From Sneathia sanguinegens (GTDB lineage: Bacteria; Fusobacteriota; Fusobacteriia; Fusobacteriales; Leptotrichiaceae), in contig NZ_LOQF01000008.1 of the NCBI RefSeq assembly GCF_001517935.1, forward strand, positions 1-64,000: 64,000 bases of DNA. Reading direction: 5' to 3'. Made by a program: the position numbers and the translations under genes. The notes under the pieces are model-generated. The model did not search any database, was not told the DNA's origin, and saw only the letters and a program-made list of their open reading frames with translations. Below, piece after piece: positions 61,703 to 64,000 of this stretch (positions are counted from its first letter, which is position 1; each line of letters starts with the position of its first letter).

Positions 61703-62710
61703 CTACGAAGTCTTATGAAATTCCTTTGTAGATGTAGCATCTAAATTTTCTTCTTTTTTTATAGTATGATGTTTTAACATATAATAAGCAGCTGCGGCTA
61801 TCATGGCACCATTGTCAGTACAATATTCCATTTTAACTGGGAAATTAATTTCTACATCTTTTAATTCATCACAAGTGTATAGCACTTGTCGTAAATATTT
61901 GTTTGCAGAAACACCTCCAGCTATTGCAACAGTTTTTGAATTTGTGTCTTTAACAGCTTTAACTATTTTTCTTCTTAAATGTTCTATAGCAGTAGTTTGA
62001 AAAGATTTTGCTATATCTCCAATATTAATTTCTATATTTTTCATTTTACATTGATTTACATAATTAGTTACAAAAGTTTTAATACCACTAAAACTTAAAT
62101 TGTAGTCTTTAATATTTGGCTGAGGTATATCAAGTGTTACATTAGCATTAAGAGCAGCTTTTTCTATTTCTGGACCTCCTGGATAATGTAAGCCAATAAT
62201 TCTTGCCACTTTATCATAAGCTTCACCAATAGCATCATCTAAAGTTTCGCCCATTAATTTTAAATTATGATTTTCATCCATATGATAGATGCTAGTGTGA
62301 CCACCAGAAGCAGCAACTGTTATAGCAGGTAATTTAACCTCATTTTCAATAAAAGTTGAATAAATATGACCGTCTAGATGATTTATTGGTATAAGAGGTA
62401 TATTGTGTCTATAACTTAAACCTTCTGCAAAAAGTAAGCCAACAAGCAAAGAACCAATTAAACCGGGTCTATTAGTAACTGCAATGTAGTCTATATCTTT
62501 CATTGTCATATTTGCTTTTTCCAAGCATTGATAAAAAACATATGTAATATTTTCGATGTGATGTCTTGAAGCTATTTCAGGAACAACACCACCATAGAGT
62601 TTGTGTATAGGTATTTGTGTAGCTATAATGTTGCTATAAACTTTTGTTCCATCTTCTACAATAGCTATAGAAGTTTCATCACATGAACTTTCTATTCCTA
62701 ATATCTTCAT
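61703..62710 (-). CDS. tsaD: tRNA threonylcarbamoyladenosine synthase subunit TsaD
   Basis: A 335-residue ASKHA-fold enzyme completing t6A37 in ANN-decoding tRNAs. The start is MKILGIESSCDETSIAIV. Metal ligands are in SRHHIENI, followed by NRPGLIGSLLVG, the nucleotide-binding VAASGGHTSIY, GGVSANKYLR and YCTDNGAMIAAA with the final metal Asp. Full length. It has a strong promoter at 62741-62769. Confidence 0.96.
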   Translation of the reverse strand: MKILGIESSCDETSIAIVEDGTKVYSNIIATQIPIHKLYGGVVPEIASRHHIENITYVFYQCLEKANMTMKDIDYIAVTNRPGLIGSLLVGLLFAEGLSYRHNIPLIPINHLDGHIYSTFIENEVKLPAITVAASGGHTSIYHMDENHNLKLMGETLDDAIGEAYDKVARIIGLHYPGGPEIEKAALNANVTLDIPQPNIKDYNLSFSGIKTFVTNYVNQCKMKNIEINIGDIAKSFQTTAIEHLRRKIVKAVKDTNSKTVAIAGGVSANKYLRQVLYTCDELKDVEINFPVKMEYCTDNGAMIAAAAYYMLKHHTIKKEENLDATSTKEFHKTS

Positions 62711-62943: not shown

Positions 62944-62973
62944 TTGCTTTTATAATGGGGGGGGGTATATACT
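62944..62973 (+). promoter_or_regulatory. Adhesin promoter containing a nine-G tract
   Basis: Nine consecutive G (62957-62965) directly follow a TATAAT (62951-62956). Two readings are possible. In the first, TTGCTT (62944-62949) and TATACT (62968-62973) are the -35 and -10 boxes, with the G tract inside an 18-nt spacer, so losing one G gives the ideal 17. In the second, the TATAAT is the -10 box (no good -35) and transcription starts in or next to the G tract. Either way tract length should affect expression. The AGGAGG ribosome site is at 62980-62985. Confidence 0.65.
62957..62965 (+). repeat. Homopolymeric G tract
   Basis: Nine G in a row in a very AT-rich region. No other G or C run of this length was noticed in the window. 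Confidence 0.97.
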
Positions 62974-62994
62974 ATGGTTAGGAGGTAGTTACTT

Positions 62995-64000
62995 ATGAAT
63001 ATTGAAGTAAATTTGAAAAAATTCAAAACAACTATAAAGAAAAAAAGAAAAATAACATTAGCGTTGATGTTAAGTTTTTTGATGACAGGGACTATTGGTT
63101 TTGCTGAAACACCAACAGTAGAAGAACTACAACAAAAGATACAAGAATTACAAATTAAAATAGAACAACTAGAAGTAAAGAATAAAGAAATGGAAAATAG
63201 ATTTAAATTTGAAGCAGTTATAGCTGGAAAAGGAGCAAAAATTGGAGGTTATGAAGTTCCAAATGAAAAAATTAGAGGCATAGCTATAGGGCAAGAAGCT
63301 ACAATAGATGCACAAGGTGGGAATGATGAGGATTATAGTATTGCAATAGGTAGAAAAGCTAGAGTTACATCTAATGGGTTAGATTTTAGTAGTATAGCAT
63401 TAGGTGATGGTGCTTATGTACTTAATGGAAGTGGAAAACAAGAATGGGCTTTAAGCTTTGATAGCGATAATTGGGATGTAGTAAAAGGTTTTTTTAATGT
63501 TACAGTTAATGGGCTAAAAAAAAGTAGTAGGATTCCAGGAGGCATTGCAATAGGGACGGATGCATATGCAAGGACTGGTAGTATACAAATAGGATCTCAT
63601 ACATACGAAGGTAAAATGGGAGGTATTGAAGTAATTAAAAATAATGATGAAACTTCAAATGATACTAATCGGCAAGCAAATATTGTTAATATGACAACAA
63701 TAGGAACAAACTCTTACCAAAAAGCAGCTATGGGAACTATGGTTGGAGCGTACAATATATCTACTGGAAATTTTGATGGTAGTGGAGGATTTAATAGTTT
63801 CAGTTATGGTGCACAAAATTTTGGATCTAGTGTATTTGGGACATTGAATAGTATAAAATCAAAAGGTAAAAATGGTACATCAGGTGTAGCTAATAGTATT
63901 GTTGGTATAGCAAATATTACTGAAAATGCTAATGGATCATTAGTCTTTGGGGCTGGGAACGTTATTAAAAATTCAAACGAATATTTAAGTTTAACCGATA
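62995..64000 (+). CDS. YadA-like trimeric autotransporter adhesin, 3' end outside the window
   Basis: The frame is open from ATG 62995 to the window end (335 codons, partial). An extended, very basic signal sequence (about 1-37, with KKKRKITLALMLSFLMTGTIGFA near its end) is typical of large type V secreted proteins. A short heptad coiled coil follows (about 40-68, VEELQQKIQELQIKIEQLE). After it come left-handed head-type repeats: GIAIGQEA, SIAIGRKA, SIALGDGAY, GIAIGTDAYA, SIQIGSHTY. It should trimerise, with an anchor domain beyond the window. AGGAGG lies 9 bases before the ATG. Likely a host-binding adhesin whose expression may vary with the G tract upstream. Confidence 0.88.
   Translation, partial: MNIEVNLKKFKTTIKKKRKITLALMLSFLMTGTIGFAETPTVEELQQKIQELQIKIEQLEVKNKEMENRFKFEAVIAGKGAKIGGYEVPNEKIRGIAIGQEATIDAQGGNDEDYSIAIGRKARVTSNGLDFSSIALGDGAYVLNGSGKQEWALSFDSDNWDVVKGFFNVTVNGLKKSSRIPGGIAIGTDAYARTGSIQIGSHTYEGKMGGIEVIKNNDETSNDTNRQANIVNMTTIGTNSYQKAAMGTMVGAYNISTGNFDGSGGFNSFSYGAQNFGSSVFGTLNSIKSKGKNGTSGVANSIVGIANITENANGSLVFGAGNVIKNSNEYLSLTD

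Follow-up and report, generated by a model that had tools for sequence, protein, structure and literature searches.

Nine consecutive G residues between −35 and −10 of a trimeric autotransporter adhesin gene in Sneathia sanguinegens: a putative phase-variation switch

The adhesin gene and its promoter

The window, i.e. the whole 64,000-nucleotide stretch of the S. sanguinegens draft genome analyzed here, has a GC content of 26.4% and breaks off within an adhesin gene (Table 1). A domain search of the gene product identified YadA_stalk (PF05662, 4.1e-19) in two stretches of the protein and YadA_anchor (PF03895, 2.3e-6) at its C-terminus, in residues 746‒800 of 854. Since stalk repeats and anchor occur together, the product is a YadA-like trimeric autotransporter adhesin (TAA), classified as an adhesin by its domain content, and the same two domains mark it as surface-exposed, as are the products of porA-type switches. 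The gene upstream is divergent, and we take it to be tsaD from reading the sequence. No relatives of the adhesin were found in viral contigs, and the promoter pattern described below had one match there, in an unrelated contig.

The promoter region consists, in order, of TTGCTT, TTATAAT, nine G residues, TATATACT, AGGAGG, and the ATG start codon. Direct reading places the tract exactly where the preliminary description had located it, with its end 29 bp 5′ of the ATG of what that description correctly called a YadA-like adhesin gene. Its statement that (G)9 is very unlikely by chance in such AT-rich DNA also holds: other G or C runs in the window reach 5 at most, and dinucleotide shuffles of the window give an expectation of 0.01, with one such tract in 100 shuffles.

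The distances from the −35-like hexamer to the tract and from the tract to TATACT add up to 9 bp, so that nine G residues give a spacer of 18 bp. By the same arithmetic, a spacer of 17 bp would result with G8 for TATACT and with G10 for TATATA. A sum of 9 bp is the commonest value in Streptobacillus moniliformis (24/39), and the 2-bp offset between the tract and the −10 is also found at one S. vaginalis locus (L158) and four Streptobacillus loci (L165, L175, L180, and L226). In the relatives, the position of TTGCTT with respect to the tract is filled by TTGAAA, TTGACA, or TTCAAA. An automatic −35 picker gave TTTATA for the window, and TTGCTT was taken instead by its position relative to the paralogues. 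A consensus promoter scan did not list the window promoter because its −35 matches the consensus at only three of six positions. As in porA-type switches, the homopolymer thus lies between −35 and −10, as judged from the geometry of the window promoter, with its weak −35, and from the paralogues and relatives.

Table 1 Features of the adhesin locus (window coordinates).
Feature	Position	Strand	Basis and remarks
Presumed tsaD, divergent neighbor	61703..62710	−	ORF, relatives found; upstream limit of the intergenic region
−35-like hexamer TTGCTT	62944..62949	+	Direct reading; weak, 3/6 vs consensus; 7 bp from tract
TATAAT 5′ of tract	62951..62956	+	Judged spacer, not −10; no −35 15‒19 bp upstream; orthologue without TATAAT
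(G)9 in promoter spacer, proposed slippage switch	62957..62965	+	Position kept in S. vaginalis orthologue and paralogous promoters
−10 region TATATACT	62966..62973	+	TATACT 62968‒62973 (spacer 18) or TATATA 62966‒62971 (spacer 16)
Shine-Dalgarno AGGAGG	62980..62985	+	Direct reading
TAA gene, 854 aa	62995..64000, past window end	+	ORF; end near contig position 65559

Tract promoters in Sneathia, Streptobacillus, and their family

The genome-wide work consisted of pattern searches. The genus of the window is represented by the S. sanguinegens draft itself (G000, 1.29 Mb) and a single-contig genome of 1,330,224 bp that is most likely S. vaginalis (G001), and S. moniliformis by a chromosome of 1,662,578 bp (G030). 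On both strands of the S. sanguinegens draft, only six runs of at least 8 G were found, five of which are immediately followed by a −10-like sequence (TATATACT in the window, TACAAT, TAGAAT at two sites, and TGTTACTAT) with a TTG hexamer 6‒9 bp 5′ of the tract. The sixth (G000:C15:8900-8907; L011:3401) is a G8 at the position of the ribosome-binding site, 3 bp before the ATG of an ORF of 219 aa that has no Pfam match, and is possibly a translation-level switch. The genome contains 15 YadA anchors. Two more of its TAA promoters, in the region G000:C6:20342-23517 (L145), have interrupted G-runs (GGTGGGGGG and AAAGTGGGGG) between a perfect TTGACA and TAGTAT, which are possibly worn or locked former switches. 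Several draft contigs, e.g., C2, C10, C15, C17, and C18, terminate in long stretches of T or A. The assembly may therefore break off at homopolymers, so that additional tract promoters could be missing from it.

The layout that recurs, TTGNNN followed after 6‒10 bp by G8‒13 and a TANNNT-like −10, stands at TAA and other surface-protein genes of S. sanguinegens, S. vaginalis, and S. moniliformis, with 36 sites in the last. Of the 13 runs in S. vaginalis, 12 are in promoters, mostly those of TAAs, and 11 of the 20 TAA anchors are encoded behind a promoter tract. In S. moniliformis, 36 of the 40 runs have a perfect TTGACA 6‒10 bp 5′ and end at a TATAAT- or TATACT-like hexamer; the total spacers measure 15‒22 bp (mode 19). 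At least 13 of the 24 TAA anchors of this species are behind such a tract, a minimum because the coordinate rule misses some. Where both hexamers are perfect, spacing remains as the sole visible fault that could be tuned, as expected of a switch. Across 33 genomes of the family, GGGGGGGGTANNNT (G8 followed by TANNNT) matched 95 times, compared with 5 times for the reversed pattern, and the matches are mostly in Streptobacillus and Sneathia. The TATANT version occurs outside the family in only five other genomes of the phylum, with one match each. We rejected a chance run or assembly noise because the pattern comes back in independent genomes, among them the single contig of S. vaginalis and the complete chromosome of S. 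moniliformis.

Among the 56 first genes behind tracts in three genomes, 24 encode YadA_stalk, 20 YadA_anchor, 17 YadA_head, and 4 Pertactin/AC_1 domains. Others encode classical autotransporters or belong to small exported families that have no Pfam hit. The tract promoters apparently form a surface-protein regulon.

Several further arrangements were observed in these genomes. In all three species (G000:C10:11727 (L010); G001, L156:16115; G030, L166:6523), the tract is followed first by the gene for a small exported protein of ~170‒210 aa and then by that for a very large TAA. The two genes apparently form an operon, and the small protein is a possible TAA accessory protein. In the Leptotrichia-like genomes G009‒G015 (L245, L247, L248, and L250‒L253), G8‒G11 stands directly before TATAAT or TACAAT without TTGACA, and a similar TTAATTTTTATTTAATTTT...AAAATCAAA stretch is located upstream in its place. 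G8‒G10 runs also occur inside or near signal-peptide coding sequences in S. moniliformis (L171:766 and L184:3311) and in G031 (L213), G002 (L242), and G019 (L263), and those of Streptobacillus belong to an ITGPRYR-type exported family. Their position suggests that, in addition to the promoter class, there is phase variation at the level of translation by frameshift.

S. vaginalis also has poly-T tracts of 14‒20 T, a few bp before TAAAAT, at TAAs and at a paralogous exported family (MKKTLLLTSLVASMVAMAGTTGSVEAYNENEATF; G001 L266‒L291, e.g., L268:1502 and L272:1502). The number of T residues ranges from 15 to 19 among near-identical copies, and these tracts are likely a second class of switch. 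Upstream of many surface-protein genes are twin direct boxes, GTTAANWAA, ~65 bp apart, of which the proximal one lies ~55 bp before the −10 (e.g., G001:C1:1015724-1015797 and G000:C10:11776-11847). Many promoters of the G and T classes share these boxes, which matched 36 times in S. vaginalis, compared with 2 times for the reversed pattern, and they are a possible site for a shared regulator.

Tract length and alternative readings of the promoter

For the pairwise comparison of tract sites, at least 80% of the bases had to be identical on each of the two near flanks. Run length was unequal in 8 of 10 such near-identical pairs, by 1‒3 G. Gapped comparison revealed G9 against G11 in S. moniliformis paralogues that are identical at 150 of 150 bases on the 3′ side, and G11 against G10, G10 against G11, and G10 against G9 in otherwise almost identical pairs from different species. 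Such cross-species pairs have had time to diverge and thus yield no switching rate. Judged from these alignments, few parts of these promoters change as fast as the tract. Together with the recurrent layout, the differing lengths among near-identical promoters support the phase-variation reading offered in the preliminary description. At the window locus itself, the two genomes compared have the same tract length of nine. mutS and mutL are present in all five genomes tested, and we therefore rejected the idea that the long runs arose because mismatch repair was lost; slippage is not boosted in this way.

We consider it highly probable that the G9 tract is a slipped-strand phase-variation switch of the porA/uspA1 type, located in the sigma-70-type promoter of the TAA gene. 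One G more or less lengthens or shortens the spacer by one base pair and rotates the two hexamers by ~34 degrees relative to each other; such a change alters sigma-70 promoter strength. In the proposed mechanism, slippage during replication would add or remove single G residues in the spacer, and the distance and rotation between −35 and −10 would change with them. Depending on tract length, RNA polymerase would then use the promoter efficiently or inefficiently, and a cell population would become mixed for expression of the YadA-like TAA. We infer slippage within a strain, a change in transcription with tract length, and an effect on adhesion or immune exposure.

The preliminary description had left two choices for the −10, either TATACT, with the tract in the spacer behind TTGCTT, or the TATAAT directly 5′ of the tract. 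From the latter, transcription would start in or beside the G-run, and the tract would act via start-site choice, RNA polymerase slippage on the run, or the mRNA 5′ end. This TATAAT is a perfect hexamer abutting the tract, and the leader would keep the Shine-Dalgarno sequence. However, it has no −35-like hexamer 15‒19 bp upstream and is not conserved: in S. vaginalis, the orthologue (identified as reciprocal best hit, 56% identical along the full length) has G9 and a −35-like TTCAAA at the same places and lacks the TATAAT, and so do the paralogues, whose −10 is 3′ of the tract. Since the orthologue keeps G9 without the upstream hexamer, the choice is settled in favor of a tract within the −35/−10 spacer, which is also the layout of the relatives. 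We thus rejected TATAAT as the −10, and a start from it is very improbable.

Even within the spacer, the tract might act without reversible switching, its length being fixed in practice and simply setting promoter strength. The nine G residues of both Sneathia orthologues, the intact MutS and MutL, and the interrupted, presumably locked tracts of some S. sanguinegens TAA promoters are in line with such a stable spacer. On the other hand, most near-identical promoter pairs differ precisely in tract length, and runs of 8‒14 G are in the range prone to slip in other bacteria, so that a fixed length seems very unlikely to us. The tract might also tune the spacing and helical phase to an upstream regulator site, in an opc/fim-like manner, rather than RNA polymerase contact as such. 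Many Sneathia tract promoters do have the GTTAANWAA pair, with ~65 bp between the boxes and a constant distance to the −10, but the window promoter has no clear pair, and GTTAA is not enriched in Streptobacillus, yet consensus hexamers flank the tract there. This role, too, has a very low probability in our assessment.

Relation to known switches and biological meaning

Surface multigene families with a repeat-containing promoter for each gene are known in mycoplasmas (vlp of Mycoplasma hyorhinis and vlhA of M. gallisepticum). Their repeats are poly-A or GAA and their products lipoproteins, whereas the family described here has poly-G and TAAs, likewise with its own repeat promoter at each gene. 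A trimeric autotransporter with a switch of the kind proposed here is UspA1 of Moraxella catarrhalis. Its adhesin gene also has a poly-G tract, and its mRNA level tracks tract length, being low at 8‒10 G and high at 11‒12 G, a 21-fold difference (PMC7302503). uspA1 is one locus, whereas Leptotrichiaceae have many loci with one promoter layout. In porA of Neisseria meningitidis, poly-G lies between −10 and −35 (PMC7864442); as here, the tract is in the promoter spacer of an outer-membrane protein gene, and spacer length is the control variable, as we propose for the present tract. While porA is a single porin gene of a betaproteobacterium, the genes in the present case are TAAs among many paralogous surface genes of Fusobacteriota. 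In Treponema pallidum, promoter poly-G tracts stand at the putative outer-membrane-protein genes tprE/G/J/L and tp0126 (PMC7864442), i.e. at several such genes of one genome, as in our genomes. T. pallidum has fewer such loci in a GC-rich host genome, whereas in Streptobacillus perfect consensus hexamers frame the tract.

The single promoter is therefore of a known type (porA/uspA1). Our literature search for phase variation or slipped-strand mispairing in Sneathia, Streptobacillus, Fusobacterium, and Leptotrichiaceae, which covered sources outside subscription journals, found no relevant paper; the paper on the S. amnii genome refers to YadA and Hia proteins and not to phase variation. The extent, with dozens of loci of the same layout in Streptobacillus and with most Sneathia tract promoters at TAAs, appears undescribed, and priority is not certain.

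Since putative switches of this type also stand at several more TAA and exported-protein genes of S. sanguinegens, and in large numbers in S. vaginalis and S. moniliformis, combinatorial surface variation is implied. Sneathia and Streptobacillus probably turn surface coats on and off by gain or loss of single G residues. A broader reading, to which we give somewhat less than even weight, is that these small, host-adapted Leptotrichiaceae run a stochastic surface program, in which dozens of adhesin, autotransporter, and exported-protein genes of Sneathia and Streptobacillus would be switched privately. Poly-G in the spacer would serve as the switch, joined in Sneathia by poly-T upstream of a TAAAAT −10, and through the GTTAANWAA twin boxes of Sneathia, control by a common regulator would be superimposed on the individual switches.

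In the Streptobacillus set, the hexamers are at consensus and it is mainly the G-run that varies, so that these promoters form a natural series in which spacer length can be related to sigma-70 promoter strength. Sneathia has been associated with bacterial vaginosis and preterm birth (PMC3535699, PMC11895484), and S. moniliformis is a cause of rat-bite fever (PMC5093955). G-tract length is a concrete readout that can be counted in metagenomic reads from patients. If the tracts switch, one clone would be a mix of surface types, which bears on adhesion studies, strain comparison, and antigen choice.
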